Assembly: GCA_003615045.1 (NCBI GenBank)
Contig: ML014354.1
Location: 1 to 23,361, forward strand
From: Caulochytrium protostelioides
Taxonomy: Eukaryota; Chytridiomycota; Caulochytriomycetes; Caulochytriales; Caulochytriaceae
Direction of reading: 5' to 3'
DNA length: 23,361 bases
Shown: piece after piece, positions 4,409 to 21,356 of the stretch
Numbering within the stretch: position 1 is the first letter of the stretch
Layout of the letters: each line of letters begins with the position of its first letter
Program-made: the position numbers and the translations under genes
The notes under the pieces: model-generated
The model's input: only the letters and a program-made list of their open reading frames with translations
The model's database searches: none
Told to the model about the DNA's origin: nothing

Positions 4409-4411
4409 ACC

Positions 4412-4810
4412 GTCTATATATTTCAAAGAACATACAGGCTCACTTTGAGACGACCTAACACGAACGCCATGCTCTGCTTGGTGAACCTCAAGAGTCCCCC
4501 ACGGAGGCCGTCCGCATTGGATTCGATTCGAACGCCGGATGCGCTTGCCGAATACGGGCTGCAATGGGGCTTGCCCGGGATGCGGCATAGCGCCGCAGGT
4601 CGGACCCGCATGGCCAGGCAGCGTTGGATGTTCAACGCGGCATTGAGATCGCGGTTCACGAACTGGCCGTTGTTGGAACTACACCATAGCAAACCTCGAA
4701 CCACGGATCCCTGACACCGGCGTTGGCCGGGCTGGGGACCAGGACCACAGACCGAGGGCGTTGTGCCACAACCCCCAGCAAGCTCCGCGCGGACAACAAC
4801 GTCAGCCACG
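4412..4810 (-). mobile_element. Fanzor (TnpB-like) remnant A, C-terminal part
   Basis: On the minus strand an open frame (4423-4809) encodes PGQRRCQGSVVRGLLWC, then FVNRDLNAALNI, then RPAALCR. NRDxNAAxNI is the RuvC-III motif of TnpB and Fanzor nucleases, whose Asp is catalytic, and a following RP..L.R is common in Fanzors. The catalytic DPG block and most of the protein are missing, so this is a 5'-truncated dead copy. The second zinc-ribbon Cys is Asn here. The 3' terminal block (4412-4480) is shared with copies B, C and E. The element's tail starts only 3 nt after the RPB9 stop codon, in convergent orientation. It could equally be read as the 3' untranslated DNA of RPB9. Confidence 0.75.
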
Positions 4811-5094
4811 TGGGCACGTGCGCGTTACGATTGCGACAAACTATGCCCTCATTGCGATGCGCGCGGCGGGTCCATGGCGGAGACGGGAACTGAGTGGACA
4901 TGGACCGCTCTCAGTGAGCTCGGCGTGAGCATCGCCCTCCTTACCGGCATCAACGCCTCATCCTGCCGTCCATGACGTATTGCACGATGTACCGAATCTT
5001 GCCTACGCTGTGCTTCTCCCGGACTCGCTGTCTTCGTTGCGGATCCTGCCTACGCGTTTGTCATGATCGCGCTTCATCCGGCTGAGGCGCCTGT
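4811..5094. other. Spacer, possibly decayed 5' part of Fanzor copy A
   Basis: No open frame here resembles a protein. By position it would be the upstream part of copy A if that element were longer, but I see no RuvC-II motif comparable with those of copies C and D. It also acts as upstream DNA for the broken polyglutamine gene. Confidence 0.35.
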
Positions 5095-5621
5095 ATGAAT
5101 CCTTTCACTAATGCAAATAGCCAGGCATTGCTGCAGTATTTTCAGCAGCAAGCGCGTTTGCAGCAAGAACAGCAGCAAAACAAGTCCAGTAGCAGCAACA
5201 AGCTCAGCAACATCAACATCAACAGCAACAGCAACATCAACATCAATAGCAGCAGCAGCAGCATGCTCAACAGCTTCAGCCCGGGCAGGCCAACGTGCGA
5301 GTGGGCCAAAAGACGCTCCCTATTGCGTCGTCATCGCAGGCCATAGCGCAGTTTTTGCAGAACCAGGAGCCACCGCCAGACCGTCGTCACTTTTTGCTTC
5401 AACAGCAGCAGCAGCTTCAATAGCAGCAGCAGCTTCAACAGCAGCAGCAGGCACAGTACCAGCTCTCCATCGCCAATGCCAGTACAGTGGTATGCAGCAG
5501 TATATGCACTTCCTCGAGTAGGCCGGGCATCGGCAGCGAGGGGGGTCAGATGCGGAAGACGAAAAAAAGCTTATTTTGGTTTTTGAGCTTATGGACGTCG
5601 CTTAAGAAGTTACTCTTCTAG
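5095..5621 (+). pseudogene. Broken polyglutamine-rich gene
   Basis: The frame starts MNPFTNANSQALLQYFQQQ at the ATG at 5095 and is Gln-rich to about 5178. From about 5175 on, the Gln-coding sense moves to another frame, which implies a one-base shift. That second frame runs to a TAG at 5619 with long Gln/His runs, then VRVGQKTLPIASSSQAIAQF and further Gln runs. It is interrupted by TAG at 5190-5192, 5247-5249 and 5421-5423, each inside a CAG/CAA run. In the two other frames the same repeat reads as Ser/Asn or Ala/Ser runs. The simplest reading is a pseudogene of a Gln-rich nuclear protein such as a transcription co-factor, family unknown. Alternatives are TAG read as Gln, or sequencing error. 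Nearby RPB9 ends at TAG with the expected length, which argues for the standard code. Confidence 0.5.
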
Positions 5622-5932
5622 ACACCAGCCGGTGTTCAATAAATAGTGAGATGTTAGCCGATTTCTTGGAAACCATCTTGGTCAATCATTCCACCGAGTT
5701 GCTTTCAGTGTTATTTTGAGGCAGATGAAGCAGTGTAGCTAGGATGAGCGCTCGTTGTCCGTGATTGGCAATGAACGACTTGGCTGCCGCCCTCCACCAG
5801 CCGAAAGTGTCGTAATCAGGATGCCCCTCCTCACAGGATGCTACGACTTGCATCATACTGGCGCCCACAACTGGTCCTTACTGGATCCCCATTCTAGCCA
5901 CGAAAGCCAACACCACGCGGACCCAATTCAGT
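5622..5932. other. Upstream region of MSH5
   Basis: This 311-bp spacer before the MSH5 start codon should contain its promoter. It is AT-richer than the coding flanks, with an A-run near 5563 just before it and an AATAAATAG stretch at 5638-5646. No gene is seen. Confidence 0.4.
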
Positions 5933-8900
5933 ATGCCGATTCGATATCGTGAACAGAAAGCTCCACCCTCTGATTCACGTCGTCCAAGCCAACTGGGGCG
6001 TGACGCCAGGATGGCCAGTCGTACAGCGAGAGGACTAGAGCCCGATATACACCCTTGCCCGAGCAACGGTATGGCCGACGCGTTTCGGAATCAAACCGTT
6101 CCCTCCAGTCGGGTCGAGCTGCCAGCGTCGCCTTCAGAACAAAGAGCCTCGTTTGTAGACGATATCAGCCACAGTTATGCCAACACGATTCATGACGCGC
6201 AACGCGAAAGTCAGGATATCGATGGTGGTCCCATTCTTAGCTTGATGGTCAGCAATCTGATGTTAGGCGCAGCGCTTTGGACCCCGGGTTCTCGTGGTGG
6301 CGATGCCCTCTTTGGCCTCATCACTCTCTTCTGCGACGCGCCAGACGATGCTACCCACCATCATCGACTCCGCGTCATTCTTGATCATGCGCATCCTCAG
6401 CTTATTCTTCTTCCTGCACGATGCCAGACACAAGTTGAGCCTGTGATCCGATCGTGGCGTGCCTCCGCCTCCTCCTCGGACGTGAATGGCGCTCAGGTCC
6501 AGACCCCTGCAACGATGGACTTTGGACTCGAAGCTGGCCGAATCCGAATACAGTCGATTGTCTTCAGACCTGGTCCATTAGACGCTGTGGAAAATAGCTT
6601 GTCGGAATGGGACTCTAGCCCAGAAGCAGGGGGTTCACAGAATGTTGGAGTCAAAGGACAGCAAGCGCTGCAGGCCATGGCTCAGGGCGACAGCCACCCC
6701 CTCATGACAAGCGCGACTGGTGCGCTTTTGCTTCACCTGCAACGCCGCCATCTCGTGGACCCGCAACATCCCAATTGTCATCTCCGAATCGGTCACCCAG
6801 CCGCATTCATGCATGTGCCTCCCGAGACGGTACGGGCCCTGGCCCTCATGATGGACGAGTCTGGGAGCGGCCACTCTCGATCCCGAGGCGCAGACACGAA
6901 GCCCCGCTCCATATTTCAGCTCGTTAATCACACCTTGACACCCCTCGGACGCGAGCGACTACTGAACTGGTTCCGTCTCCCTCTGCGACAACATCAAACT
7001 CTTTGTCATCGTCAAGCCACTCAGGCATACTTGCTGCAACCGCCATCTCACGCTTGCGATGCGGAGCTTCGCGTCGACGCCGTCCGTGATGGCTTGATTG
7101 GCGTCCCACATGTGCCGACTTTGCTGCGCCATCTTGAGACACGGCTTTATCTTCCTGATTGGATTGCACTCATCCGATGTCTGGGCCAGTTCACGAGCAT
7201 AGGCGAAGTGTTGCAGCGCACGTGTGATGTACAGGACGCAGTTCGGTCTGTTTCTGTCAGTGACAATTACGACATTAGCATGTTCACAGACGATGCCCCA
7301 AACGATGAGGATACGGACCTCTCTCGACAGCTTCAGGACCAGACGCCGATCATTATACGACAGATTCAGACACTATTGCATATGCCTATCACGGCTCAGG
7401 GTATTTTTACTCCATCCCAGTCAGAATTCCAAGGTTGTGGATCGCCACTGAATGACATGATCAACAGTGGTGATAATAGTGACCCAAGCGTTTTGCCTAC
7501 TGTGCCGTTTCATAATCGAATTGAACAGCTGGCGAGCCTGCTTGAGAAAACCATCGCAGTTGATGCGTCACGCTTCCACCATCGCGTTGTCGTTCAAGAC
7601 GGCGTGGATGCCACGCTCGACGAGCTCCGGCTTACTTATTCAGGATTGGACAACTATCTCGCTTCGGTAGCCCTCGAGGTCCGGCAAGCCTTACCCACCC
7701 TGGCTGCCATACTTCAAGAGCATGAACACCGGTATAATTCTGTACGTCAGAATTGCCTGGGAAAGCGGCGGCGCGAGCTGGAAGCGTCCATGGTCTCGTT
7801 TCGGCGCGGACGAGATGACTCATTTGAAGAGATTGATAGCTCATCGCTCGATGTCGTGACTGACGATGGCTTACAGGGGCATGGTGGGCATGGCAAGACT
7901 GATGAAGTAGACGCGATAGTAGAATTCGACGACCACACCAGTCACAGTTCAAGTGTGAGCTCATCTCGATCGATACGAACGACTGGTACGGCGGTCACAA
8001 CACTCACCAATACAACAGGAACTGTGATCGGTCGCCACGCTGATCCTCACACGATGAACGTAGTTTACTTTCCACAACTTGGATTTCACATCGCGCTTCC
8101 TTTTTCCAGTATCACGCCGGACCAAACTCCTCGATCGACAGTTGCATCGGGGTCTCCCTCGGCTGCCACCGCAGCCGAAACGACCTTAGATACTATCACA
8201 GAAGCCCGTCTTGCAGCTCTGGGTCTCACCTATCGATTCGCTAGCCCATCAGCGCACTATTACAAACATGCGATCATGACTAGGCTGGACGAAACACTTG
8301 GCGATATCTACACGCGAATCGTCGACCGTGAACTCGACCTGCTCCAGTCTGTACGGGAAGATGTACTGCACTATGGCGCAGCTATGACAGCTCTCGCCGA
8401 CCGGCTCGCCGATCTCGATGCGTTGGCATCCATGGCGCACACGGCCCGAATTTTGGGATGGGTTCGTCCGCATCTGACTCGAACGCGCGGTATTCATATT
8501 GAAGACGGCCGTCACCCGCTGGTCGAAATGGCGTGCCAGGGCGATTTCATACCTAACGACATCCACCTAGCGCCAACGCCACGAGACGCTTTGGCCGTGC
8601 ATTCTGACCTCACGGAGGAGGCCACAAAGGCCTCCCACGATAGGGGGGGTAGCGCCTTCCGACGTCCCCATCGCGCGGGCGAAGGCATTCTGCTGACGGG
8701 GCCCAACTCTTCGGGAAAATCTGTCTACGTCAAGCAAACAGGTGTGATTGTCTTTCTTTCTCATATTGGCAGCTACGTCCCCGCTCGGCGCGCGCGAATC
8801 GGCATGGTCGATCATTTAATGACGCGGCTACAAACATCAGAAAGCGTCAGTCGGCCCGAAAGCGCCTTTGTCATTGATGTACGTCAGGTCGCACATGCCC

Positions 8901-10018
8901 TACAGATTGCAACGCCGCGTTCCCTTCTGCTCATGGACGAGTTCGGCAAAGGCACGGATGCGGGCAATGGTATCAGTCTTTTCTGCGGCGTGCTCAAGTA
9001 TCTTCTGAACTTTCCGAAGAGAGGGGATGACCCTTCAGTCCATGACGCAGACGACGATGCGGCGCGGGTCGATCGCCGTCAGTCCAATACAGGCGTCGAG
9101 CCCGGTGACGTGGCAGACGAACATGTGCGCATGGCAGCGCCAGCCATGGAGACCGAACAGGCTCCTGAAAATGTCGTGCCCGCGCGAAGGTCCCCTATTT
9201 CGGTTAGACAGCTTCCCTTCTTCATCATGACCACGCATTACACCGAGATCTACCGCTATGCGTTGCTACCACTGCCACATCCGTGCTTGCAAGAGTATGC
9301 GACGCAAGTGATTCAGCATGTGCCATCGGATCCTCAAGAAGGCGTGGTCCCCACACGGATAGATTCGCTTTCTGCTACCATGGTCCCACAGTTTACTCTT
9401 CTCTATGCCGTGAAACCGGGGCGGTCGTCTGTGTCGTGGGGCCTCGCGTGCGCGCAAGTTGCTGGAATACCTCCAGGTATCCTTCGCCTCGCGCGGTGGG
9501 CCCACGCGCGACTCGTCAACGAACAGCCGCTGATCGGTTACCATGAGCACTATGACAACGACGATATGGACAGCGAGCAGACTAATGACGAGGGATACAT
9601 TCAGCGACAGCGCTGCCGCCGTCATGGTCGTCGCCGTAACGATCGCGATTCACCAGCGACGACGAGTTGGTCTTGGTCTTCGTCCTCGTCTACGTCATCA
9701 TCCTCGGCGCTATCGTCATGCTCGTCCCCTTCGTCGTCATTGTCTACCTCGGCGTCCGAGTCCCTCGCCATAGGGATGCGGCGGCGACAAGCTAGAGGGC
9801 AAGCCGGAGGGCAAGTCGTTGCACACACCGGTGCGCAAGCTAGGGCGCCAGCCGATTATAATCACAAAGGTCATGCCTTTTCAAGTGAACTACGCCGAAA
9901 ATCCATTCAAGCGTGTGTTCGAGCCTTTGAGACGACCACATTTACGAATCCAACGGCCGATCCGCGTGCCGATCCGGTCGAGAACATGTGGCGGCTTTTG
10001 GACCTTCTTGGCGATTGA
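5933..10018 (+). CDS. MSH5: MutS homologue MSH5, meiotic crossover factor
   Basis: MSH5 pairs with MSH4 to form a sliding clamp that stabilises Holliday junctions and promotes meiotic crossovers. It lacks mismatch-binding activity. The frame is one intronless exon of 1361 residues from ATG to TGA, against about 800-900 in most relatives. A core/lever region carries FQLVNHTLTPLGRERLLNWF, and NVVYFPQLGFHIALP matches MSH5 better than MSH4. The ATPase domain has Walker A TGPNSSGKSVYVKQ (residues 922-935) and Walker B LLLMDEFGKGT (Asp1002, Glu1003). The SSGKS and DEFGKGT spellings are the MSH5 form; MSH4 has GPNMSGKS and DELGRGT. MTTHYTEIY is the H-loop. Extra length comes from a disordered N-terminus of about 100 residues, an acidic/Ser insert near 640-700, an insert of about 60 residues inside the ATPase domain (about 1028-1090), and a Ser-rich tail. 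Later Met codons could be the true start. Confidence 0.93.
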   Translation: MPIRYREQKAPPSDSRRPSQLGRDARMASRTARGLEPDIHPCPSNGMADAFRNQTVPSSRVELPASPSEQRASFVDDISHSYANTIHDAQRESQDIDGGPILSLMVSNLMLGAALWTPGSRGGDALFGLITLFCDAPDDATHHHRLRVILDHAHPQLILLPARCQTQVEPVIRSWRASASSSDVNGAQVQTPATMDFGLEAGRIRIQSIVFRPGPLDAVENSLSEWDSSPEAGGSQNVGVKGQQALQAMAQGDSHPLMTSATGALLLHLQRRHLVDPQHPNCHLRIGHPAAFMHVPPETVRALALMMDESGSGHSRSRGADTKPRSIFQLVNHTLTPLGRERLLNWFRLPLRQHQTLCHRQATQAYLLQPPSHACDAELRVDAVRDGLIGVPHVPTLLRHLETRLYLPDWIALIRCLGQFTSIGEVLQRTCDVQDAVRSVSVSDNYDISMFTDDAPNDEDTDLSRQLQDQTPIIIRQIQTLLHMPITAQGIFTPSQSEFQGCGSPLNDMINSGDNSDPSVLPTVPFHNRIEQLASLLEKTIAVDASRFHHRVVVQDGVDATLDELRLTYSGLDNYLASVALEVRQALPTLAAILQEHEHRYNSVRQNCLGKRRRELEASMVSFRRGRDDSFEEIDSSSLDVVTDDGLQGHGGHGKTDEVDAIVEFDDHTSHSSSVSSSRSIRTTGTAVTTLTNTTGTVIGRHADPHTMNVVYFPQLGFHIALPFSSITPDQTPRSTVASGSPSAATAAETTLDTITEARLAALGLTYRFASPSAHYYKHAIMTRLDETLGDIYTRIVDRELDLLQSVREDVLHYGAAMTALADRLADLDALASMAHTARILGWVRPHLTRTRGIHIEDGRHPLVEMACQGDFIPNDIHLAPTPRDALAVHSDLTEEATKASHDRGGSAFRRPHRAGEGILLTGPNSSGKSVYVKQTGVIVFLSHIGSYVPARRARIGMVDHLMTRLQTSESVSRPESAFVIDVRQVAHALQIATPRSLLLMDEFGKGTDAGNGISLFCGVLKYLLNFPKRGDDPSVHDADDDAARVDRRQSNTGVEPGDVADEHVRMAAPAMETEQAPENVVPARRSPISVRQLPFFIMTTHYTEIYRYALLPLPHPCLQEYATQVIQHVPSDPQEGVVPTRIDSLSATMVPQFTLLYAVKPGRSSVSWGLACAQVAGIPPGILRLARWAHARLVNEQPLIGYHEHYDNDDMDSEQTNDEGYIQRQRCRRHGRRRNDRDSPATTSWSWSSSSSTSSSSALSSCSSPSSSLSTSASESLAIGMRRRQARGQAGGQVVAHTGAQARAPADYNHKGHAFSSELRRKSIQACVRAFETTTFTNPTADPRADPVENMWRLLDLLGD

Positions 10019-11174
10019 GGCTAAGTCGTGAGAACCCTTTCTTTTTGTTTCTGCTGCTTCTTACCCTGTGTCACGAGTGTCACGACGAGCTGTCCTCCCT
10101 CGCCACTGCATCGACGCCCGCGACTCTACAAATCGTGTAACTTGAAGACGCGAAGATTCGGGAGACGAAAAAATACTGAGTGGCCCACCTATGCATTGAA
10201 CAAGCGATGCGGAGAACGCTACACCGCTACACTGCGGGGTGCCCCTGGGTTTTTGATCACGAGGCCGCATGGTGTGTGGATCGTGGCGTGAGAAGGCGTC
10301 ATCAAACAAACAGAACCACGTGGCGAACCGAAGGAGAGCCTCTTCATACGGATAGTGGAGGCGATACGTCGGATGATAGAGCCCAACGATGTGAGGATCG
10401 GAGTCCAGCGTTGCAATGATGGAAACCCAAGGCTTGCGGCTGATGCGTCAGTGCCGCCTGGCCGGGGGGCTGGCTGGGTGGGCGTCCACCCCGCCGGCCT
10501 CCCTGCTGTTGGGTGAATGCGCCCGTCGCGTATGGGTCTGTCGGGGCTGGATCTGGCTTTTCTGTTTGGCCGCGGGAGGCCGCGTGTCGGAGCATACCAG
10601 CGTAACAAACCGCCGCCGTGGAATCCCGCCCCAACTTCCCCTTCGCCGCCACCTGATCGCATCGCCGGCCGGGCAGCCGTTGGGAGGCGGCGGCCTAGGC
10701 GACCACGGAGCGACCAGTGCCGCGTTCCACAGGGCGCGGTCTGACGAGGGCACAGAGATGCTGGATCGCAGCGGCCGCCGTGGGCCCCTGGTGAACGCGT
10801 CTCCGGCATCCGGCCGTCGCAGCAACGACGGCACGACACCCCGCCAAACGTCTGTCGACGAGAGCCCCAGCAGGAACAGAAGCCGGACCAGGAGCGGGAA
10901 CGAGCGGCCCACCACGCCACAGCGATCTGACCCGGCCCGACAAGCCGACGCCGATCCTCCCTGCGGGCGAGGGCCTCACCTGGATCACCTAGGCCCGCGG
11001 CATGCGCTCCCATCAGTCGTCGGTACTGGCATATTCCACTGGCGTTGCGCATGCTGCACATGGCTCGCTGCATGCCGCCGACCGCTTGCAGCATGTTGCA
11101 GTATGTCGCATACGGGGAGGGGAGACTTGTTTTCGTTTGGGGGGAGCGCTCATCCATGCAGGTGAGACCTGTTG
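10019..11174. other. Intergenic region, no gene recognised
   Basis: GC-rich DNA in which long frames overlap on both strands (minus 10219-11187, plus 10416-11165, minus 10448-10915). Their products are Arg/Pro/Gly/Trp/Cys-rich, mutually overlapping and unlike any family I know, and third-position GC is weaker than in the real genes. I treat them as chance ORFs in GC-rich DNA. A decayed transposon cannot be excluded. Confidence 0.45.
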
Positions 11175-11222
11175 GCCAAACGGCCAAACGACCAAGCTGC
11201 CAAACGGCTAAGCAGCCGAACG
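11175..11222. repeat. 8-bp-period degenerate tandem array, locus 1
   Basis: Six consecutive 8-mers with consensus GCCAAACG: GCCAAACG, GCCAAACG, ACCAAGCT, GCCAAACG, GCTAAGCA, GCCGAACG. The phase is kept without gaps. A related array is at 16532-16595 on the same strand. Because 8 is not a multiple of 3, it does not look like a protein repeat. Confidence 0.8.
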
Positions 11223-12272
11223 AGAAGGGGCTTGTCGTCCTGGTAATTCAGCTCAGCAAACGGCGGTGGGGCTAATGGATCCGGTGGCGAGGCGCCGATG
11301 CGACACTCGCGGATCCGCACAATGCCAATGCCGGCCGACCCTGTTCGCAGGCCGCAGAGCCTCGGCGAACGCGTGGACTCGCACGAGAGCAAAAGCCTCA
11401 GGCGAGCGAATCGAGCGTGTTTTGTCCTTCCCGTCAGTTTGACTCGGCGAGACTCTCCGATGGGAACGAAGATCCATCGGCATTGCATACGCCCTTCCAG
11501 TTCTGGGTTCGCCGTGAACGGTCGCATACCATAGCTCTGGACTTGACAGAAAGAATTGGACGCTGATCAGGCCGGGGTATATTGACTCTCAATGAGGGTC
11601 TCATTCCGCAGATATTGACGATTGTTTCCGCTTGCTCATACCGCTTTCACGGTGTCCGCCTCGCTTTCATTCTTTTAAGATCCATCGACCGTCAGACATT
11701 GGGCAGCGCCACGCGTTGTTGTGGGTGTGCTCCCTGTCCCCTTCTCCGGCCTGAGGGTGCCCGCTGCAACTCCGACAGCGATCGCGTCGCCGATCCCTTC
11801 TCCTCCGCGCCCCTTGCCCCCCGTCGCCCCTGTTTCCCCGCCCCACCTGGTCTAGCCCGACCGCCGTGGGACCGCGTGGCCACGGCCCTGCTTCGCTCGA
11901 TCGATGCGAGGCGCGGCGGATCACCCGCCGTCGAGCTTGATCGCAGGCAGAACCCTCTTCATACTTGGCATGAGCACCCCGGGGTGGCTCGATCGCTCCA
12001 TCCTTTTCCAGACCGAGGCCGTTGCGTGATCCGCTCGAGCGACGACTGTGGCGGCGACGACGACGACGACGACCACAAAGACGACGACGACGACCACTGC
12101 CATCTCTGCTCCGACTGCTGAGCACGCGACGCCGTCGTTAGCCGAGAGAGGTCTCTTGGGCAGGTGGACGCCGCTTCCATCGCCACGCAGTCCCCCTCCG
12201 GCCTCCGACCACCGGCTGCGACCTGCGCAGTCCTCCCTCCCCACGATCGCATCCACACTCGCCACGCCCACC
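11223..12272. other. Upstream region of the CDKL kinase gene
   Basis: About 1 kb without a convincing gene. The kinase frame itself is open back to 12048 but has no ATG before 12273, and that extension encodes Thr runs from a GAC/ACG-type repeat. A second frame (11582-12121) is open on the same strand but encodes low-complexity Pro/Arg then Asp runs. The region probably holds the promoter and 5' leader. Confidence 0.45.
12053..12101. repeat. GAC-type trinucleotide repeat tract
   Basis: Two runs of GAC/CGA triplets separated by CACAAA lie about 180 bp upstream of the kinase start. They read as Asp, Thr or Arg runs depending on frame and probably belong to the 5' leader or promoter. Confidence 0.75.
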
Positions 12273-13847
12273 ATGCTCGAAGATTACGAGAAACTCGGCC
12301 CGATCGGCGAGGGGACTTATGGCGTGGTGCTGAAATGCCGACACAAGGAGAGCGGCCAGGTGGTCGCGATCAAAAAGTTCAAGGAGAGCGAGGACGCGAC
12401 CGAGATCCGCAAAACCGCGAGCCGCGAGATCCGCATGCTCAAGAGTCTAAAGTATGACCACATCGTCAACCTGCTGCAAGTATTCCGCCGCAAGGGCAAG
12501 CTCTATCTTGTCTTTGAGCACGTGGACCGCACCATTCTGGCCGCGCTGGACCGGCATCCACGCGGCATGGACGAGGAGCAGATCAAGCGCATCATGTTCC
12601 AGCTGCTCAAGGCCACCGACTACCTGCACTCGCGCAACATCGTCCACCGCGACATTAAGCCTGAGAACGTGCTCATCTCCTCACAGGGCATTGTGAAGCT
12701 CTGTGATTTTGGGTTTGCGCGGACCCTCGCCGGTCCAGGTGCCAAGTATACTGACTACGTGGCCACCCGGTGGTACCGCGCGCCGGAGCTGCTGGTCGGC
12801 GATACCGAATACGGCCGCGGTGTCGACATCTGGGCGCTGGGCTGCATCTTTGCGGAACTGCTGACCGGCCAGCCGCTGTTCCCCGGATCGACCGATATCG
12901 ATCAGCTCTACCGCATCATGCGCAGCTTGGGCCCGCTCTCGGCGCACCACGCGGCCGTCTTCGTCTCAAACCCGCTGTTTGCGCACACGACGCTGCCCGA
13001 AGTGGGCAAGATCACGCCGCTAGAACAGCGCCTCGTCGGGATCCATGCCGCCGCGCTCGCGTGGCTGAAGGCCACGCTCATGTACGACCCCGAAGCTCGA
13101 CTCACGGCGCAGCAGCTCATGCAGACGCCGTTCTTTGCCGCGAGTAACTGGTCGGACCGGTTCGAGGCCGAGCTCAAGCGGCTGCTGCTGCGTGAGCGCG
13201 AGCGCGAGCCCGCCGAGCGCTCGGCGGCCGCGGCGCGGCGCAAGAAGACCGACTCGGCGGCCGCAGCAGGCGCTCACATCTCGGCCTCGCCGGGCACCCA
13301 CAACGCACCCGCGTTCGCGCCGAACGCTGCGCAGCCGCACCATCCCGCTACGCAGCCGCACACCAGCACCGCGTCGCCACCGAAACGGGCCATGTCCCAG
13401 ACCCTCGGGAGCAAGCAGAACGTCTTTGGGGGCACCGCCAAAGAACTGACTAAGAAGGCGGGGATGGTCACCCTCGCCGCCGGCAATGGGGGCTTGCCGT
13501 CGGCCACGGCCGCGTCGACGAGCATGACGACCACGACGAGTGTGGCCGGCACCGCGCTCATCTCCGCCCCGTCACGCAGCACGGGGCCTAAGCTGCGGCA
13601 GCTGGGCCTCGAGCCCGGCCTGGGAATGGCCAAGACGCGCTATCCGGAGCCGGCGTCGCAGCAGCTCATGTATTCCCGGTCGCGACCGACGGTGCCCGGC
13701 GCGATCACTAACCGCACCGTCCTGTCCCACGGACTCGGCGGCGCGATGGCGGGCTCGCAGCGAATGGATCCGTCCAAAGCCGGCGTCAAATCGGGTTCAA
13801 ACGGGCATATGCTCCCCAAGATATGCTCTCCAACCCTAAAAAGATAA
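12273..13847 (+). CDS. CDKL-family (CDKL5-like) Ser/Thr protein kinase
   Basis: The protein is 524 residues from the ATG in CACCATGC, immediately before the kinase domain. Kinase domain, residues 5 to about 290: Gly loop GEGTYG (12-17), ATP-binding Lys34 in VAIKKF, Glu52, catalytic HRDIKPEN (125-132, Asp127), DFG at 145-147 and WYRAPE at 167-172. The activation loop has Thr160-Asp-Tyr162, matching the MAP-kinase-like TxY of CDKL kinases. [23 protein letters not shown] and KLCDFGFAR are characteristic of CDKL1-5. CDKL kinases act at cilia and flagella, controlling axoneme length and microtubule-associated proteins, and do not depend on a classical cyclin. The tail after 290 is low-complexity Ala/Ser/Thr/Pro without a recognisable motif. 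The family supports a flagellated organism. The start could be further upstream only with a non-ATG codon. Confidence 0.92.
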
Positions 13848-13857
13848 AATCGGCGAT

Positions 13858-14260
13858 GTCTATATATTTATTTTTTCCGAACATAGAGGTTCTCCCTTGA
13901 CACGACCCAAGAGGACCCCCCACGGATGCAGTCCGAATTAGGTAGCTAGCCGGATGAGCTTGCCGACCACGGGCTTCAACCTGCCACGCCCAGTGAGCGG
14001 GGCACAGCGTCCCCCGTCTGACCAGTCAGTTGGATGTTCAACGCGACATTGCGGTCGCGGTTCACAAACTCGCCGTGGGTGGCTTCACACCACAGCAAAC
14101 CTCGAACCACGGTTCCCCGCCGCCGGCGTTGACCGGGTCTCAGGACCACAGGGGAATACACGGGTCCGCAGGACCCGGTTGAAAGCCGTCGGCCCGGCCG
14201 GCAGGCCGCCCGCCTTGGGTGCGAGATCGGCACGACCGTGTCGGAGGTAGCGACCGTCAC
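13858..14260 (-). mobile_element. Fanzor (TnpB-like) remnant B, C-terminal part
   Basis: The minus frame (13976-14260) encodes LRPGQRRRRGTVVRGLLWC, then EATHGEFVNRDRNVALNI, the RuvC-III region with a substitution (NRDRNVA). After this the similarity is lost and the 3' part is shorter than in copy A. The block at 13858-13930 matches the tail of copy A, including a 12-mer GTCTATATATTT shared exactly (4412-4423 and 13858-13869). The tail begins 10 nt after the CDKL stop codon, again convergent with the host gene. At the nucleotide level 14030-14066 aligns with 4627-4663 of copy A. It is 5'-truncated and dead. Confidence 0.72.
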
Positions 14261-14352
14261 ACATCAATATGCCGGTCAGACCCACTTTATGGGGCTTCTT
14301 GTAGTGAACCCTGTGCGCATGACGTGCCATCACCCAGTGGGCCACCAGCAGG

Positions 14353-14377
14353 CAACGAAGCGACCTTCAGGGCCATG
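14353..14377 (+). mobile_element. Fanzor 3'-region fragment F
   Basis: The stretch 14357-14377 is a perfect 21-nt inverted match to 21582-21602 inside copy E, and the match extends with one mismatch to 14353. In copy E this block lies near the 3' end of the element, on the minus strand, so F is in + orientation. It sits about 40 nt past the galactokinase stop codon (14419-14421), which makes it convergent with that minus-strand gene. It is too short to be sure of the full origin. Confidence 0.5.
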
Positions 14378-14418
14378 ATCATGGCGGCATATCATCTTGA
14401 TCAAGCAAATCTTCTGGG

Positions 14419-16005
14419 TTACAGGATCAGATCACGAAAGATGTTGGCGCCGGCCTGGGGTGCCGAGGCAAATATCATATTGCTGAGCTGCTGCTGACCC
14501 GCAGGATCGTGGCGCCACTCCGGACGGCGCTGATAGTAATACTCTTCGCAGAGACTCGCAATCAGGCCGGCGGCGCGGTCGGCTGTGACAAGACTGACAC
14601 AGGACCCGCCCCACCCGGCGCCGGTCAGACGCGACCCAAAAGCGCCGTGCTTCTCGGCCAGCGTTGTAAGCGTATCCAGCTCCGGGCTGCTACAGTCATA
14701 CAACTCCACGCAGGACCGATGGCTCTCATGCATCAACTGCCCGAGCGCCTTGAGCGTGCCATCTGGGTCCGGCATGGACGACCCCGCGTTCAGCTTGCAC
14801 AGCGCGTCGAACGCATACACGCGATGCGCTTCGGCCAAGATATGCTTGCCGCGCGCAAACAGATGTAGTCCCCCCGACGCGTCACACTGCATGTCGGGCG
14901 CATACCGCGCCCGCAGCGAGGCGATAGAGAGGTCGGATATGTCAAGCATCTCGGGCACATCGGCCTCGTTCACGACACCCTTGACGGGAAAGATGTCTTC
15001 AAACCGCTGCATCGCCTCGGCGAGCGTCTCGGCGGGCGCGCTCCGCATTGCCTCGGGGCCATAGTAAGCGTTGAGCACCGCGTGATAGGTCTTGCACGGC
15101 ACCGAGATGTTGAGCGCGCGCGCCAGCACGACGGCGCCCAGCGTAGCTTCATAGAAGCGCAGATTATATTGCACCGCAGCATACTTATGCTTCTCCGCGG
15201 TCTTAAGAGTCTGTGCAATGATAAACACTGGCTGCTCTCCGGCCGACGTCAGCGGCAGCGGCACGGGCGACACGTGGAGATGAGGGGCGAAGTCGACGCG
15301 GAGGGCAGCTTCGCGGTGGCCGAGCATGCAAATGCTCTGGTCCATGCCGCCGCACGCAACGCCGGCCAGGTGCTCGCCATCGATCGCGGCGCGCACCAGC
15401 TGCCGGCTCTTCATGACGACGCCGTTCGCGGCCATCGTTGCGAGCGACGCGCCGCATGTCAGCGCCGCGCTTGAGGAGAGCCCGGCCGCAATGGGCAGCG
15501 TGCTGCTGACGGCCAAATTAAACCGGCTCAGGGTCTGGCCGATCCGCGCGTCGGATTGGATCTGCTCGAGGGTAGTGCGATACGCGCCCTGGACGTAGTT
15601 GCCCCAGTGGTGGACGGTTTTGTCGATCTCCAGCACGGTTCCGGACTGGTGCGACCACTCGGTGTCCACGTAGCGCTCCGCATGGTCGGCGTGATGCAGC
15701 CGCACGGTGACGGTGCCGCCCGGCCCGACGGGTTCGATGTCTCCGACGGCAAGGAGGATGTCGCGGTTCAGCGCCATCGGCAGCACCGAAAACCCAGCAT
15801 AGTCGATGTGCTCGCCAATGAGGTTGACACGCCCCGGGCTGCGCACAAACAGCGACGGCGCTGAGCCGAAGCGCGCCACATAGGCGCGGTAGAGCGCTTC
15901 ATAGCGTGGCGCGGCTTGGGCCGCGGTCTTGAAGTCGTAAACGTCGGCCAGCGACGTGTACGTGGGTGGCGCCTCGTCGCCGTCAAGGTCGACGGTGCAG
16001 GTCAT
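14419..16005 (-). CDS. Galactokinase, GAL1/GALK2 type
   Basis: A GHMP-family kinase that phosphorylates galactose (or N-acetylgalactosamine in GALK2-type enzymes) at C1 using ATP, the first step of the Leloir pathway, in the cytosol. It has 528 residues, the size of yeast Gal1. Residues 57-69 hold motif I PGRVNLIGEHIDY (Arg59, Glu65, Asp68 at the sugar site). GLSSSAAL at 175-182 is the ATP-binding motif II. CGGMDQS places the catalytic base at Asp222. LTGAGWGGSCVSLV at 460-473 is motif III. HIDYAGFSVLPMAL is the spelling seen in yeast Gal1 and animal GALK2 rather than GALK1 (HTDYN), so the substrate cannot be fixed by sequence alone. All active-site motifs are intact. One exon, with ATG start and TAA stop, and no other sugar-pathway gene nearby. 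Confidence 0.92.
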   Translation of the reverse strand: MTCTVDLDGDEAPPTYTSLADVYDFKTAAQAAPRYEALYRAYVARFGSAPSLFVRSPGRVNLIGEHIDYAGFSVLPMALNRDILLAVGDIEPVGPGGTVTVRLHHADHAERYVDTEWSHQSGTVLEIDKTVHHWGNYVQGAYRTTLEQIQSDARIGQTLSRFNLAVSSTLPIAAGLSSSAALTCGASLATMAANGVVMKSRQLVRAAIDGEHLAGVACGGMDQSICMLGHREAALRVDFAPHLHVSPVPLPLTSAGEQPVFIIAQTLKTAEKHKYAAVQYNLRFYEATLGAVVLARALNISVPCKTYHAVLNAYYGPEAMRSAPAETLAEAMQRFEDIFPVKGVVNEADVPEMLDISDLSIASLRARYAPDMQCDASGGLHLFARGKHILAEAHRVYAFDALCKLNAGSSMPDPDGTLKALGQLMHESHRSCVELYDCSSPELDTLTTLAEKHGAFGSRLTGAGWGGSCVSLVTADRAAGLIASLCEEYYYQRRPEWRHDPAGQQQLSNMIFASAPQAGANIFRDLIL

Positions 16006-16494
16006 CGCGGAAACCGATGGACGCGCAAATGGGCGTGTAAATGGAGTACAAGGGAGATGGGCGATGGTTCCAAGCGGTTCATACGCGATGTGGTGTTCAC
16101 GTCGACCCCGAGTCGGATGCGATCAGCAGGATGAACCCAAAGGGTCCTGTGTACAGGCGTCGCGGGTTGCAGATGACACCAACATGTCATGTAGTGTAAT
16201 GCTCCATTTCCTGGTCATCTTTCCCCCCGTCTCCGATCGATTTAATATTCATCTCCATACGCTCTGGGTGGACTCACATTTGCTCGGAGCGGTGAGATCG
16301 GCAGCATGCCCTGGCATCGGCGCCGCTTTTGGAACCCGAGAACGGGAGAAGCATTTTAAGGATCGGCGGCGGGGAAGAGGGCGAGGGGTGGCCGCAAACT
16401 GCGGCAGACCGCAGAGGTCGCGTGAGGCCGGTGGGGCATTCGGCAACCCGCAAACAATGCCATTGCTCGGGACCGACCACGTTGTGGCCCCACG

Positions 16495-16531
16495 AACCCC
16501 ACTGACGCCACTGACCCCACCGACCCCGTCG
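16495..16531. repeat. 9-bp-period degenerate repeat
   Basis: Consecutive 9-mers ACCCCACTG, ACGCCACTG, ACCCCACCG and ACCCCGTCG run directly into the 8-bp-period array on the right. Confidence 0.65.
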
Positions 16532-16595
16532 GCCAAGCGGCCTGTCGGCCCGTAGACCCAGCGGCCAATCCGCCCAACCGCCAAGCGACCAATGT
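16532..16595. repeat. 8-bp-period degenerate tandem array, locus 2
   Basis: Eight consecutive 8-mers on the same theme as the array at 11175: GCCAAGCG, GCCTGTCG, GCCCGTAG, ACCCAGCG, GCCAATCC, GCCCAACC, GCCAAGCG, ACCAATGT. G/ACC at the start of each unit is almost invariant. The array is more diverged than locus 1 but has the same strand and phase. Confidence 0.7.
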
Positions 16596-17041
16596 CAACG
16601 GCGATCCGGTCGGCTGACTTTTCGTGCAGCACGGGTCAGAAGGCGGGCCCCTGACACCAAGGCCATACGGGACAGAAGGCTGTTCATGGTGAGGGCGGCG
16701 GTCACAGCGGCGCGCGTCACGTGGACACCGTCGTTGACGCGTCGCCGTCGCTGCCGCCACCCATGCCGCCGCCGCCGCCGGGCTGTATCACGCGGCCCAT
16801 TGGCGGCGGCCCACGGCCCGTGGCGTTGACTTCTGGGAAACGAGCAGCCCCGAACCCCCCGCGTGACTTGGTCGGCTGGTCACACTCATCGACAACCGTC
16901 AGCCGTGGCCACGCGAAAAAAACGCGATAGGACCGCCCGAACAGCAGTCAGAGACGTGGCAGCGCCATCTGAGCCACTGCAGCTGGCGGCGGCGAGCTCC
17001 AAAGGCACAGCGCTCGCTGCGCACCACCGCTTTCTGGAGGT

Positions 17042-17700
17042 GTGTGGCTCGCCACGTACGATCCGCTGGGGACCGAGTTCCGGAAGCCGCGCTGGGCACG
17101 CCCGCGCCGGCGGCTCTCCAGTGGCAAGCCGCGCGTGTTTGCCCCGTTCTTGAACCGCGTCGCCAACTGGGGCCGCTGCGGCGATGAAGCAACCGCTCGC
17201 GCGTACCAGGCGTGCACCCAGCGGTTCCGCACCCTCCTGGTTGACGCGTTCCGGACGACCCAGGGCATGCCGAGACGGATGAGATTCCGGGGTAAACCCC
17301 CGGGTCCCGACGAAGGTGCGGACCGCTCGCACGTCCCGGGCAGGCGCCCGCTCGACCGCGCCTGCGGCCATCAACCCGGTTCGCACAACTCGGGGGTATG
17401 CCCAAAGGAATGTGGACCTGAAACCCGGGCAACGCCGGCGCCAGGGGATCGAGGTCCGAGGGTTGCTGGGGTATAAAGCCACCCACAGCAAGTTGGTGAA
17501 CCGCGACCTCAATGCCGCGTTGACCATCCGACGTTGCCTGGCCTTATCCGTTAGACCGATAGCGCTGTGCCGCAACCCGAATCAAACCTGGTGGCGATCC
17601 GTGGTCGGCAAAGCCATCCGACACTGAACCGCGAATGCGCTACTGCCTCGGTGGGGGACCCCTCTGGGGCACCGCCGAGGGCATGGTGTGCGTGTTAGGT
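17042..17700 (+). mobile_element. Fanzor (TnpB-like) remnant C, RuvC-II to 3' end
   Basis: This is the longest copy. The frame 17042-17476 encodes FAPFLNRVANWGRCGDEATA and then RFRTLLVDAFRTTQ. VDxFRTT is the RuvC-II block of Fanzor and TnpB (usually VDEFRTS), with the catalytic Glu replaced by Ala. A frame change before about 17400 then leads to LKPGQRRRQGIEVRGLL and LVNRDLNAALTI, RuvC-III, followed by RPIALCR. The Cys of LLWC is Tyr. It has a frameshift, a lost catalytic Glu and no RuvC-I, so it is dead. The 3' block 17645-17700 aligns with the tails of A and E up to the shared GTTAGGT. Unlike the others it is not at the 3' end of a gene; the next gene, PTRHD1-like, lies 300 bp downstream in the same direction. 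Confidence 0.75.
17645..17700 (+). ncRNA. Candidate guide-RNA (omega RNA) scaffold remnant
   Basis: In TnpB and Fanzor elements the guide RNA is encoded at the 3' end of the element. This 3' block of copy C is conserved in copies A and E and folds on paper into a stem-loop: CCTCG (17646-17650) with CGAGG (17676-17680), GTG (17651-17653) with CAC (17670-17672), and CCCC-TCT-GGGG at the tip (17659-17669). The assignment is inferred from position and conservation only, and the parent nuclease is dead. Confidence 0.3.
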
Positions 17701-17701
17701 A

Positions 17702-18002
17702 GTGGGCCATTACATTCTGGTAAACGAACGCCAGGCGGCAGCGGCTATCAGGCCATTCGGTCATAGTGTCTCAGCGGTCAATCAATCGGCACCGCCGATC
17801 ACGGTCAACCCTCTCATGCGCTTGGGTGGCCTTCAGCACCCGGGGTCATCTCATATACAATAACATGACCGACCTAATCGTTGTTTATTTCTCTCGTTCC
17901 TCATTTGCAGCTGCCTGCCACATTGCATGATCGCCCACTCACCATCCGCTGCCAGTGGTCGCTTTTGGAGGCCATTGCTTGAAGCAGGTTAAGCGAGCGT
18001 GA
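17702..18002. other. Upstream region of the PTRHD1-like gene
   Basis: About 300 bp without a gene. It is AT-richer around 17850-17905, with a pyrimidine-rich patch (TTTCTCTCGTTCC) near 17888-17900. It probably holds the promoter. Confidence 0.4.
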
Positions 18003-18707
18003 ATGCTGTTTCGTCGCCTTGGTCTGGGTGCGACCGCGTGGCTTCGGCAGTGCTTGTTATTCGATTTGGCTAAGTGCCCACGTCACTGCCTGATAGCAAG
18101 CACGCGTCTGACGCGATCCGTGTGGACCCCCAAAATCCAGCAGCACAGTGCCAGTGGCGAAATGACGGTCGCTTCCGCTCCCGCTTCAGGTTCCCCTCAC
18201 GTAGAGCATGCGAGCGACCCAGAGCTGCATGAAACGCCACTGGGCCCGGCCGAATCGCCGCCGCCGCCGCCGCCATCGATGCCGCATCGCGCCCAGCGCG
18301 CCGCAGTGAAGGCCGAGCAAGCTGCCGCCGCCGCGACGGACGCGCCGCGGGACCCACTGGTCATGTATATGGTGATGCGAAAGGACCTGAAGTCGCAGTT
18401 CAAATTCACGACGGGCGCGCTGATGGCGCAGGCGGCACACGGTACGGCCAAGGCCCTCCATGTCTTCCGGGACCGCCTCGACACCGAAGCGTATCTGGAC
18501 GACATCGACCACATGCACAAAGTCACCCTACGCGTAGCCACCGGCAGCGAGCTCACCGACACGGCGGAGCGGCTTGATGCCGCTGGCGTGCCCTATGTCA
18601 TCTGGGTTGAGAACCCGGAACGCATCGAGACGTGTCTTGTCACCGCACCCGGTCGCAAAAGCGTGATCGGCTCGCACCTGCGCCATCTGTCCCTGTTTAC
18701 CAACTAA
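18003..18707 (+). CDS. PTRHD1-like (peptidyl-tRNA hydrolase II fold) protein
   Basis: The conserved domain covers residues about 118-234. PLVMYMVMRKDL opens it; GALMAQAAHGTAKAL follows and corresponds to the Pth2/PTRHD1 helix with Q and H near the presumed active site. Then come HKVTLRV and VPYVIWVENPERIETCLVTAP. These match PTRHD1 (LVQYLVLR, GALVAQACHAA, WLEQPENIATC) rather than canonical Pth2. Canonical Pth2 removes peptides from stalled peptidyl-tRNA; the activity of PTRHD1 proteins is less certain. Residues 1-45 are Arg-rich with only one acidic residue and could be a mitochondrial targeting peptide. Residues 55-115 are Pro/Ala-rich linker. A second start at Met54 (MTVASAP) would give a form without the leader. 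ATG start, TAA stop, no intron. Confidence 0.85.
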   Translation: MLFRRLGLGATAWLRQCLLFDLAKCPRHCLIASTRLTRSVWTPKIQQHSASGEMTVASAPASGSPHVEHASDPELHETPLGPAESPPPPPPSMPHRAQRAAVKAEQAAAAATDAPRDPLVMYMVMRKDLKSQFKFTTGALMAQAAHGTAKALHVFRDRLDTEAYLDDIDHMHKVTLRVATGSELTDTAERLDAAGVPYVIWVENPERIETCLVTAPGRKSVIGSHLRHLSLFTN

Positions 18708-19607
18708 AAGGATCTCCGTGGCCATGGCATGCTGCACGATACTTGATGCATGCATCACTGGCTGGGAGTGCCTTTGGGAGCTCTGCTTGCTGGCCTGCCA
18801 TGCATGACGCGTGGCCTGCGGCGGCATTGGGAACAGCATCAGCACGAGCGGGAGCGATGGGCACGGCGTGGCTGAGCTGTTGGCTCTCCAGCCCCCGCCA
18901 TGCGTCTCGCCCTTCTTCTATGAAAAAGGGGCTCGGGCACTCCGTTGCGCGAGCAGTCTGTCACGCTGTATTCGAGCCAGCGCGGCAGAGCTGACTACCT
19001 GCACATCGGCCGGCACATCGGCCGGTGCCACACATCACAACAAGGATCGACGGATTGGGGTGGCCTTGTTGCTCCCGAAGCTTGTCTGACACAAGTAGCA
19101 TCATGATAAGTTGAGACAGTTGAGACATATCCCGATTGCTGGAGAACGCGGTCCATGTCGGTTTCGACCCTCAACTCCGACCGTCTAGTCGGCAGTCAAC
19201 CCCGACTCCATGTGACATGACGCCATGCCCCCCAGACCTCAATGCGGCCTCTCTTCATAACTCCCTGACTCGTTCGGCCTCTTCCACCGTGCCTGCCAAC
19301 CAGCACTTTCCCGATCTTCTCTCCGCGTTACTCACCCGTGAACGTGCCTCTTGAACCTACGTACCTCCTGAACTTAACATTACCCTGAGTGAGCCCTGAC
19401 ATTGTTCATCAACCTTCTGTCGCCAAAAGTTGGCATCCCATCGACAGGATCGTCGTTTCCTGTGGCACGGTCGAGTAAGGAGGGCCGACGCGTGACCGGA
19501 TCGTCGGAGGCGTCCCTGGCGGCCACGGGACGTTCTTCTGATCACCTTTCATCGCAAAGCGCGGCTTGCCCGCTTGCTCGCCGTCCCGGCATCGTCGTTG
19601 CTCCGTT
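18708..19607. other. Intergenic region, no gene recognised
   Basis: This 900-bp stretch lies between two rightward genes and should hold the 3' end of the PTRHD1-like transcript and the cyclin promoter. Frames of 60-120 codons are present but low complexity. A 12-bp tandem repeat (19001-19024) and a 9-bp duplication AGTTGAGAC near 19109-19126 are present. Confidence 0.45.
19001..19029. repeat. 12-bp tandem duplication with palindrome
   Basis: GCACATCGGCCG is present twice in tandem. The second copy runs into GTGCC, so GGCAC and GTGCC flank an 8-nt loop and could form a short hairpin at 19012-19029. Confidence 0.7.
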
Positions 19608-21077
19608 ATGGCGCGGCGATCAGACAGCCAGCCACTCTCGGCTGGACCGTCGTCGGCCCCCCTCTTTCCGGGACTCTCGACCAACGACAACGGTGAGCTG
19701 ATGCTCGATTTGGACCTCGATTTTGATATGGATGAGGAGGCCGGTTCGTCGGCTGCGACCACGACCACGGCCAGGGCCACTGCAGTCACCGCCGCGGCGG
19801 CGACAACGACGGCAATGGCTTCGATAAGCGATGGCCGCGCAGGACCGGCAAGAACGTCGTCGCGACCTGCCACGGCGCGAGATGCGGGCCGGGAAGCCAC
19901 GAACACGTCCGGCAAGAGAGAGGGCGCTCTATCGGCAGCCGAAGACGACGCAGACGACGGTATCGATATGTCGTTTGAGGCCTTGTTTCCTGGTTGCCCG
20001 CGCCACGTGCCGTCGCACCGCGACCAGGAATGGCTGTACTCGATCGACGAGCTGGCCGTGTCGCCGACCCAACGAATCTCGCGCTGGTCGCGGGATCAGC
20101 ACCTGCTGAACCGCCCGACGCTGGCGACTGCGCCGCGCGTCCAGGTTCTCAGCGTCTATGAGGAGGCGGCCATGAAAGGCAAAGCCTGCGTCTTTATCGA
20201 CCGAATCAGCGCGCGCCTCAAGCTGCCGGAGACCATGGCTTACCAAGCGAAGGTGCTCGTACACCGCTTCTATGCGCGGCAACCCTTGCAGTTCCACCCG
20301 TTCTACGAGGTGGCGGCGGGGCTGGTCTTTGTCGTGCTGAAGCTCGGGGAGATCCCGGGCGCCCGCGGCGTGAAGAATCTTCTCAGCGCCGCTAGCTCCA
20401 TCGCCGCCAAACAGCACGTTCCCGAGAACTCGGCCGAGTGGGTGCGTTGGCGCAGCGCCGTCCTCTTCTACGAGAGCTATGGCCTCGCCGTCATCGGCTT
20501 CGACACCAGTGTCGCTTTGCCGCACCACCCGCTGCTTGTCATGCTCGCTTGGTGGTACCCGCGCGCAGCCGCAGCCTTCGCCGACCCGCCCACCGCTCGC
20601 ATAGAGGACGTCGACGTGGCAGAACGCGCGGCCTATCTGACGCTGCTGCGCCACGCCGCGTCGTACGCCGCCCAGGCCCTCCATACGACCCTCCCTCTGC
20701 GCTGCCACGCATTCGAGATGGCGGGCGCGGCGCTGTGGTGCGCCATGATCACGGTCGACCTGGGGCTGCGGCTCGGGACGTGTGACGTGGGCACGGCGCC
20801 ATCGGATGGCGGCGCGACGGCGAACGATCCGGAGGTGTGGCGGTGGCCAGCGCCAGCGTGCGCGGCCTCGGCGGTGTGGCGCGGCACTCGACTGCGCAAC
20901 TTCCTCGAGTCGTGGGATCTCGACCCTGCATGGCTGCCTGTCTGGGCCGAGGAAATTATGGTCTCCCGGCATGATGCCGCTTATCGCCGTTTCTTAGAGC
21001 ACCTGTTCACGCCTTCGAACGACGAGTCCGAGCACCCCCCTCGCGAAATCGCGTCGGCCGTCTCTGCCACCGAATGA
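19608..21077 (+). CDS. Cyclin of the transcriptional type (C/K/T/L-like)
   Basis: The protein is 489 residues from the ATG at 19608; the frame is open upstream without an ATG. Residues 1-130 are disordered, with an acidic patch (LDLDLDFDMDEEAG, about 33-46) and Ala/Thr runs. WSRDQHLLNRPT (160-171) resembles the W..D..L..TPS opening of K/T/L cyclins. The first cyclin fold spans about 175-265: VFIDRISARLKLPETMAYQAKVLVHRFY, then FHPFYEVAAGLVFVVLKLGEIP, with Lys245 and Glu248 at the usual CDK-contact positions of KxEE. A second, weaker fold follows at about 300-395. Such cyclins activate CDK7/8/9/11/12-like kinases acting on RNA polymerase II, but the exact class cannot be set. The CDKL kinase nearby is not an expected partner. 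Stop TGA, then Fanzor copy D about 40 nt later. Confidence 0.78.
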   Translation: MARRSDSQPLSAGPSSAPLFPGLSTNDNGELMLDLDLDFDMDEEAGSSAATTTTARATAVTAAAATTTAMASISDGRAGPARTSSRPATARDAGREATNTSGKREGALSAAEDDADDGIDMSFEALFPGCPRHVPSHRDQEWLYSIDELAVSPTQRISRWSRDQHLLNRPTLATAPRVQVLSVYEEAAMKGKACVFIDRISARLKLPETMAYQAKVLVHRFYARQPLQFHPFYEVAAGLVFVVLKLGEIPGARGVKNLLSAASSIAAKQHVPENSAEWVRWRSAVLFYESYGLAVIGFDTSVALPHHPLLVMLAWWYPRAAAAFADPPTARIEDVDVAERAAYLTLLRHAASYAAQALHTTLPLRCHAFEMAGAALWCAMITVDLGLRLGTCDVGTAPSDGGATANDPEVWRWPAPACAASAVWRGTRLRNFLESWDLDPAWLPVWAEEIMVSRHDAAYRRFLEHLFTPSNDESEHPPREIASAVSATE

Positions 21078-21114
21078 ATATGGAGAGAATAGGTTGTCAA
21101 TACACCAGCAATCT

Positions 21115-21356
21115 GGCGACGCCAAGCAGTGTTGGATGTACGAATCCGCATTGATATCGCGGTTCGCAAACGTGCTGTGACTGCTTGAATCGCACCACAG
21201 CAAACTGATCACGGTCTTCTCCCGCCGGCCTTGCACTATCAGCAAGACCAGATGGGTCTTTGCATGTACCTGGGTCGTGCGGACCTCATCGACCAGGACG
21301 GTACAGAAACCCTTGTACACGCCTTGTACATCCGTGGCTGCCCTGTCAGACATGCG
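21115..21356 (-). mobile_element. Fanzor (TnpB-like) remnant D, RuvC-II and RuvC-III
   Basis: The minus frame reads KGFCTVLVDEVRTTQVH, which is RuvC-II with the catalytic Glu preserved. GRREKTVISLLWCDSSSH and STFANRDINAD, RuvC-III, follow after about 45 residues. This is the only copy where both motifs lie in one open frame. The N-terminal two thirds and the usual 3' tail are missing. The nucleotide sequence 21121-21170 aligns with copy A near 4616-4663. The motif spelling (CDSSSHSTFA) is shared with copy E and differs from copies A-C. The C-terminal end lies about 40 nt past the cyclin stop codon, in convergent orientation. Confidence 0.75.

Follow-up and report, generated by a model that had tools for sequence, protein, structure and literature searches.

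Remnants of genes of the Fanzor type, the eukaryotic RNA-guided nucleases related to TnpB, are found in contig C244 (ML014354.1) of the chytrid Caulochytrium protostelioides, and some of them begin immediately behind the stop codon of a host gene and run antisense to it, so that the two 3' ends face each other. Is this arrangement a property of the element, a consequence of what a compact genome tolerates, or an accident of one locus? An earlier note, made on the window (the entire contig, 23,361 bp, of a genome of 20.95 Mb in 337 contigs), had counted four such tail-to-tail cases and had proposed comparing copies across the genome with random intergenic placement. The reading that we favour, with a probability of about one half, is that the family is a decayed Fanzor1-related gene that was copied inwards from its A-rich 3' end and strongly preferred positions just downstream of host stops.

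About a quarter of the sampled copies lie just behind host stop codons

Copies were picked by similarity alone. The candidates scored were 40 of 501 and 40 of 638 first-look matches to two DNA queries that include the 3' region, and 87 of 725 matches to a protein query; the fetched loci merged into 82 pieces (288.5 kb) with 100 hidden Markov model (HMM) hits, 90 of which entered the 3'-end tests after ten with incomplete 3' ends had been dropped. Genes were called with a codon log-odds model trained on the sampled pieces. In the window this model recovered six of the seven genes that have Pfam or PDB support and missed MutS, whose composition differs; some genes are therefore missed elsewhere, and the null misses the same kind.

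At a score threshold of 40, a called stop faces the 3' end within 110 nt in 24 of the 90 copies, against 1.6% of random intergenic positions, so the comparison that had been proposed favours placement at stop codons. The pattern extends well beyond the contig in which it was noticed: outside the window, 23 of 87 3' ends lie this close to a facing stop where 1.37 were expected (p ~1e-21, ~17-fold), 15 of the 23 being within 50 nt, and from 111 to 200 nt there are only two copies against 0.55 expected. The p-value stays below 1e-14 whether the cut is set at 50, 110 or 150 nt; the 110-nt limit itself was chosen after the distances had been seen. The three fetch sets agree with each other (10/33, 7/25 and 6/29) and with a test that dispenses with the codon model, in which 27.4% of 84 copies, and 2.8% of 6720 random draws, have an antisense open reading frame (ORF) of 250 codons or more that ends no further than 110 nt from the 3' end.

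The training of the codon model on the same pieces, together with the late choice of the 110-nt limit, could suggest that the pattern is produced by the way in which genes were called or copies chosen. We find this hardly credible, given the concordance of the fetch sets with the model-free test, the selection of copies by similarity alone, and the Pfam domains present in 15 of the 20 facing ORFs tested, among them ribosomal S10, TBCC, RasGEF, a proteasome subunit, HECT, a ubiquitin-conjugating enzyme, MutS and Serinc. (The 20 were taken from 25 facing ORFs, leaving out two in the window that already had Pfam support, one not contained in any single locus, and two others.) The model called no stop for 65 copies, and in 24 of these an antisense ORF of 90 codons or more has its stop near; ten of these ORFs were tested against Pfam for missed genes, and one had a domain above the cut-off (EF-hand, stop at 133 nt) and one a MuDR match below it. 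Between stop-adjacent copies and the others, neither HMM score (p 0.20) nor length (p 0.79) differs. On either side, all 90 copies are free of called gene starts within 110 nt, where the null gives 1.0 to 3.0%; chance alone would place only ~1 to 3 starts there, so this zero is not a strong depletion.

The placement is tied to one end of the element. Within 110 nt, 24 stops lie at the 3' end and 4 at the 5' boundary (25 and 9 at a score threshold of 20), a comparison in which the 5' boundaries are located less exactly than the 3' ends. Between convergent genes, the median distance from the 3' end to the stop it faces is 41 to 57 nt and that from the 5' end to its own stop 178 to 179 nt (Wilcoxon p 0.005 to 0.01, 11 to 12 copies). 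Convergent settings are found for 11 to 12 copies and divergent ones for 4 to 5.

A motif at some of the junctions

In the span from 15 nt before to 25 nt after the junction, TATATA occurs in 7 of 23 stop-adjacent copies and in 1 of 64 others (p 2.8e-4). It is absent from both groups between 25 and 110 nt, and 60 to 20 nt before the junction the groups do not differ. Read in the host sense over a slightly different span, TATATA is found at 7/23 and 2/64 junctions (p 0.001), TATATTT at 7/23 and 5/64 (p 0.01) and six T at 10/23 and 11/64 (p 0.02), whereas the other four of the seven motifs tried in this way show no difference at the junctions; these p-values are uncorrected, and the motif test was prompted by the data. 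A T-rich sense strand is not in clear excess after element-free stops (in 26 of them, five T occur in 7 and five A in 4). UAUAUA is a poly(A) efficiency element in yeast, and both it and (UA)3U3A are strong efficiency elements of yeast 3' untranslated regions (UTRs) (PMC8522215). The link between motif and placement may mean either that insertion favours rare 3' flanks that bear the motif, or that copies which bring or keep the motif are retained behind genes.

A family with one fixed end

A 33-base pattern from the region encoding NRDLNAALNI, allowing up to 3 mismatches, matches the genome 344 times, 172 on each strand, and its reversed control 0 times. Coverage per position is highest at the 3' end and declines stepwise towards the 5' end across copies; as a rough guide, a 5'-region query gave 101 first-look candidates against the 501 and 638 of the 3'-region queries. 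From the 3' end to the 5' boundary, copies measure 96 to 1810 nt (median 684, 88 copies), and the open frame upstream of NRD has a median of 71 codons and a maximum of 334 (87 copies). The longest genome match to P0136, a related protein, covers residues 141 to 480 with one internal stop, none spans all of P0136, and no intact copy was seen among those read.

The 3' terminus is A-rich, around TTAAAAAAATAT, and is followed by unique sequence. At the other end, several fuller copies start with a short leader and an ATG, and several copies run on past an ATG. What had looked like a sharp 5' end was rejected as the true 5' end of the element, as 12 further starts show that it is the query copy's own truncation. 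The start-region motif was found at the 5' boundary in 0 of 84 copies within 5 edits (at 6 or 7 edits, in 10 against 8 in the control), and inverted copies of the 3' end, as expected of terminal inverted repeats (TIRs), were seen within 8 edits in 1 of 84 copies, the control giving 3 of 84. Such features are those of a non-LTR (long terminal repeat) retrotransposon family and not of a cut-and-paste or IS605/IS607 element. The likeness to the site choice of IS605/IS607 elements that had been suggested for the window was accordingly rejected as the working model: the copies are one-ended, with variable 5' truncation, no TIR and no detectable target-site duplication.

Copies are also common where contigs begin. 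Among 100 listed pattern matches (of the 344), 13 fall in the first kilobase of a contig, where ~1.6% would be expected, and many contigs thus break in or beside the Fanzor-related family. Contigs C99 and C260 begin with sequences that by eye are tRNA-like (L049:25-100 and L017:15-90), upstream of Fanzor copies.

The element protein is related to Fanzor1

Judged by profile and predicted-fold matches, the element protein is related to Fanzor1, in line with the Fanzor-type identity assigned earlier from the letters of the window. The alignment used (A1) holds 16 sequences (P0121, P0122 and P0124-P0137) from Caulochytrium and from unnamed or metagenome contigs. Of these, P0121 is the 320-aa open stretch of another copy (L070:926-1885, reverse strand), with 16 homologues; the chimeric Caulochytrium protein P0123 was left out. 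All 16 sequences carry EFR[TS][TS] followed by RD, the two T/S residues and RD that mark Fanzor1, and seven reach the DPG motif with the first catalytic D, most of the others being fragments that start beyond it. The A1 profile matches Fanzor1 of Parasitella parasitica (9cf0) at E 5.5e-5. In the AlphaFold model of P0136 (490 aa; mean predicted local distance difference test score, pLDDT, 61 over the model), the C-terminal half mostly scores above 70 and the N-terminal half is of low confidence; the seven best PDB fold matches are all Fanzors, at E 1.3e-9 to 8e-7 and template modelling (TM) scores of only 0.3 to 0.4. The Cas12f1/TnpB TNB domain is matched weakly by copy A of the window (E 0.007, below the cut-off), is absent from the other four window pieces in the profile search, and appears at E 0.1 or better in six A1 sequences.

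Counting against Fanzor1 membership, a search of the whole genome with the profile of this TNB domain family (PF07282) at E 0.001 returned nothing, P0121 alone has no match in Pfam, NCBIfam or PDB, and P0136 alone matches no Fanzor among PDB sequences. Furthermore, the C4 zinc finger that the published Fanzor/TnpB motif (PMC3627910) has between its T/S pair and RD is missing: in this stretch all 16 A1 sequences have only 0 to 2 cysteines, and we therefore refer to a Fanzor1-related clade without zinc finger and not to canonical Fanzor1. No consensus RNA structure was found in the last 150 nt of 59 copies, whose gappy alignment makes this a weak test, and a guide RNA is thus unsupported.

The genome copies have an insertion of ~40 to 45 residues between EFRTT and RGLLW (P0121 ~190-242) that is absent from the 15 other A1 sequences, and many genome matches of P0136 stop at this site. 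The annotated Caulochytrium protein CXG81DRAFT_23488 (P0123; C6 ~206,900-207,300) begins with a Fanzor stretch and continues with unrelated sequence, being either a fusion or a gene-model error.

How the copies may have arisen

We envisage that the sense strand of a host gene would be nicked at an AT-rich signal for the 3' end of its mRNA, that the freed DNA end, reading stop ... TATATTTT, would pair with the A-rich 3' end of the element transcript, and that reverse transcription would then proceed towards the element's 5' end, often ending early. One such step would account at the same time for copies that are antisense to the gene, lie tail to tail with it and are truncated at the 5' end. 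Reverse transcription primed at a nick would also fit a 3' end that is fixed, a 5' end that varies, placement antisense to genes and a motif at the junction. The reverse transcriptase (RT) would have to come from another element, as none was found in the sampled copies.

Several observations weigh against this account. For 64 of the 87 copies outside the window, no stop was detected within 110 nt. In 14.8% of 54 copies, against 2.8% at random, a sense ORF of 250 codons or more has its end no further than 110 nt from the 5' boundary. The orientation bias anticipated in the earlier note holds in terms of distance, but unambiguous tandem settings are even, 4 against 4 (3 against 3 at the higher score), so that the argument from orientation rests on distance and not on tandem counts. 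TATATA is missing from 16 of the 23 stop-adjacent copies. After element-free stops it occurs within 150 nt in 1 of 40, no more commonly than elsewhere, and is therefore not a general 3'-end signal here; the proposal that an AT-rich 3'-end signal is the target survives for that part of the stop-adjacent junctions with which a TATATA-type motif is linked, and most junctions lack it. The copies end in a short A-rich stretch and have no long poly(A) tail. A target-site duplication was not detected, the longest shared word being 5.99 nt against 5.85 nt in mismatched pairs (82 copies), in a test whose power is lowered by old copies and fuzzy 5' boundaries. Finally, none of the 19 RVT_1 hits in the genome falls within the 82 sampled pieces, whose copies were not followed as far as the element's true 5' end; four of the 19 adjoin Ty3-type RNase H hits, no RT-encoding element with the same tail was identified, and PF14529, the endonuclease family of long interspersed nuclear elements (LINEs), has no hit in the genome. 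The RVT_1 gene of contig C19 was considered as a LINE candidate and rejected, as by eye it looks telomerase-like.

The same observations bear on other explanations. Insertion could be less targeted, with ends reading TATATATTTTTT after a stop selectively kept because they serve as a poly(A) signal and 3' UTR, which we regard as rather unlikely. The hexamer frequencies given above (higher at stop-adjacent junctions than at other junctions or after element-free stops) and the strength of UAUAUA and (UA)3U3A in yeast would suit such retention, but most stop-adjacent copies lack TATATA, and the equal HMM scores and lengths of the two groups give no sign of long preferential retention. Selection alone also explains less because the majority of copies have no stop nearby and are the same in score and length as those behind stops. 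These majority copies likewise speak against the suggestion that only insertions after genes are tolerated. Random insertion into a gene-dense genome, in which 3' flanks and convergent gaps are the least harmful sites, would account for the lack of copies near gene starts, the stop enrichment on the 5' side and the surplus of convergent over divergent settings, yet we consider it unlikely: the 17-fold excess ends at ~110 nt, is tied to one element end and is accompanied by a junction motif, and the lack of near gene starts is not a strong depletion.

A route without RNA would start from a break near the 3' end of a gene, perhaps made by Fanzor itself, which is repaired by copying from the element's 3' end and aborted at variable points. 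The fixed 3' end, the variable 5' end and the lack of a target-site duplication fit this equally well as reverse transcription, but by itself it leaves the choice of many unrelated 3' flanks unexplained, and the search for 3' RNA structure, weak as that test was, lends no support to a guide RNA; we hold it to be improbable. Returning to nick-primed reverse transcription, in its boldest form the Fanzor nuclease itself would nick the signals that end host messages, and its own transcript would be reverse-transcribed from the nick, leaving antisense 3' UTRs behind host genes. This is a long shot, and so is the corollary that a nuclease-nicked, transcript-primed Fanzor retroposon would be a natural relative of prime editing.

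Relation to known elements

Fanzors have been described mainly from DNA transposons. The Caulochytrium family shares with Fanzor1 of SPu-1 (Spizellomyces punctatus, PDB 8gkh) and of P. parasitica (9cf0) the RuvC-type motifs DPG, EFR[TS][TS] and RD-N, and, judged from its longest copies, it was likewise a single-gene element of ~2 kb; a length of ~2,100 bp is given for SPu-1 (PMC3627910). It differs in that none of the 16 aligned sequences has the C4 zinc finger, and in having hundreds of copies, mostly 5'-truncated in the sample and with no TIRs found, whereas TIRs of 33 bp and putative TA duplications are described for SPu-1 (PMC3627910). With LINEs and the copies these make in trans, the family has in common a fixed 3' end, an A-rich terminus and variable 5' truncation; unlike them, it shows no RT hit in the sampled pieces, no target-site duplication and no long poly(A). 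To TnpB elements of the IS605/IS607 type it is akin in its TnpB-type RuvC nuclease, but its copies are one-ended without a common 5' end, and no conserved structured 3' RNA was found. The 'ghost loci' of S. punctatus are also short elements that have part of the Fanzor 3' region in common, and they lie between inverted repeats of 30 nt (PMC10432273), whereas the Caulochytrium copies have one fixed end only.

A one-ended, 5'-truncated family that prefers gene 3' ends would represent a new route by which an RNA-guided nuclease gene spreads, and the Caulochytrium family would be a mobile element aimed at the 3' ends of genes. We found no earlier description of such a family among the top-ranked matches in the open-access literature searched, with most subscription papers outside its scope.

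Copies and host genes in the window

The host genes with Pfam support in the window are an ankyrin protein, RPB9, MutS, a CDKL-type kinase, galactokinase and PTH2. The features that bear on the arrangement are as follows.

4034..4408, forward strand: host gene of the RPB9 type (TFIIS zinc ribbon, PF01096, E 1.2e-12), whose stop faces copy A
4413..4800, reverse strand: copy A, 3' part (NRDLNAALNI region, 3' UTR and A-rich end), 3' end at ~4413
12048..13847, forward strand: host protein kinase of the CDKL type (PF00069, E 4.1e-73), whose stop faces copy B
13863..14240, reverse strand: copy B, 3' part of the element between convergent genes, 3' end at ~13863
14419..16005, reverse strand: host galactokinase (Pfam), convergent with the CDKL-type kinase, with copy B in the gap
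16925..17732, forward strand: copy C, ~800 bp, 5'-truncated, 3' end at ~17732 and facing the start of PTH2
19566..21077, forward strand: Cyclin-L/T-like host gene upstream of D and E (Cyclin-L1 PDB-chain match, E 7e-4)
21113..21449, reverse strand: fragment D, a piece of the element without its last ~185 nt, edge ~35 nt past the cyclin stop
21470..21640, reverse strand: copy E, 3' end of the element interrupted by retroelement-like sequence, 3' end at ~21470
21841..22122, forward strand: integrase-core fragment adjoining copy E (PF00665, E 1.6e-8), Ty3-like by eye

Two of the four tail-to-tail cases described in the earlier note hold. Copies A and B are antisense to RPB9 and to the CDKL-type kinase, with 3' ends 4 nt and 15 nt past the respective stops. 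Fragment D is genuine Fanzor-type sequence and its edge does lie near the cyclin stop, but it breaks off in the region of the NRD motif, with the last ~185 of 240 model positions gone; being 3'-truncated, it is uninformative on the placement of 3' ends. The stretch designated F had been taken for a further fragment; it has only a 26-nt match to copy E and none to the other sampled copies, and was not counted. The 3' end of copy C is 429 nt from the start of the PTH2 gene, and that of copy E, which continues into retroelement sequence, is 392 nt from the cyclin stop.

The cyclin-like gene matches cyclin L1/T1 chains at E 7e-4 to 1e-3. It has no Pfam match above the cut-off, with Cyclin_N below it and no family at E 0.01. 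The closest named proteins to the galactokinase, among the 120 matches listed, are from chytrids (38 to 39%), and none of these 120 is from Caulochytrium. An Rfam search of the window gave no match.

Between 21650 and 22330 the window holds a decayed retroelement piece with the PF00665 integrase core, beside and inside copy E, and Ty3-type RT or RNase H hits within ~0.7 kb of Fanzor matches also occur at C183:10108-11840 and C22:18242-19723. Upstream of copy A, 300 nt (window 4800-5090) match C85:58362-58667 at 96% and no other sampled piece, and this stretch is a separate, younger duplicate. Between copy A and MutS lies a stretch rich in CAG/CAA repeats (window 5095-5520).

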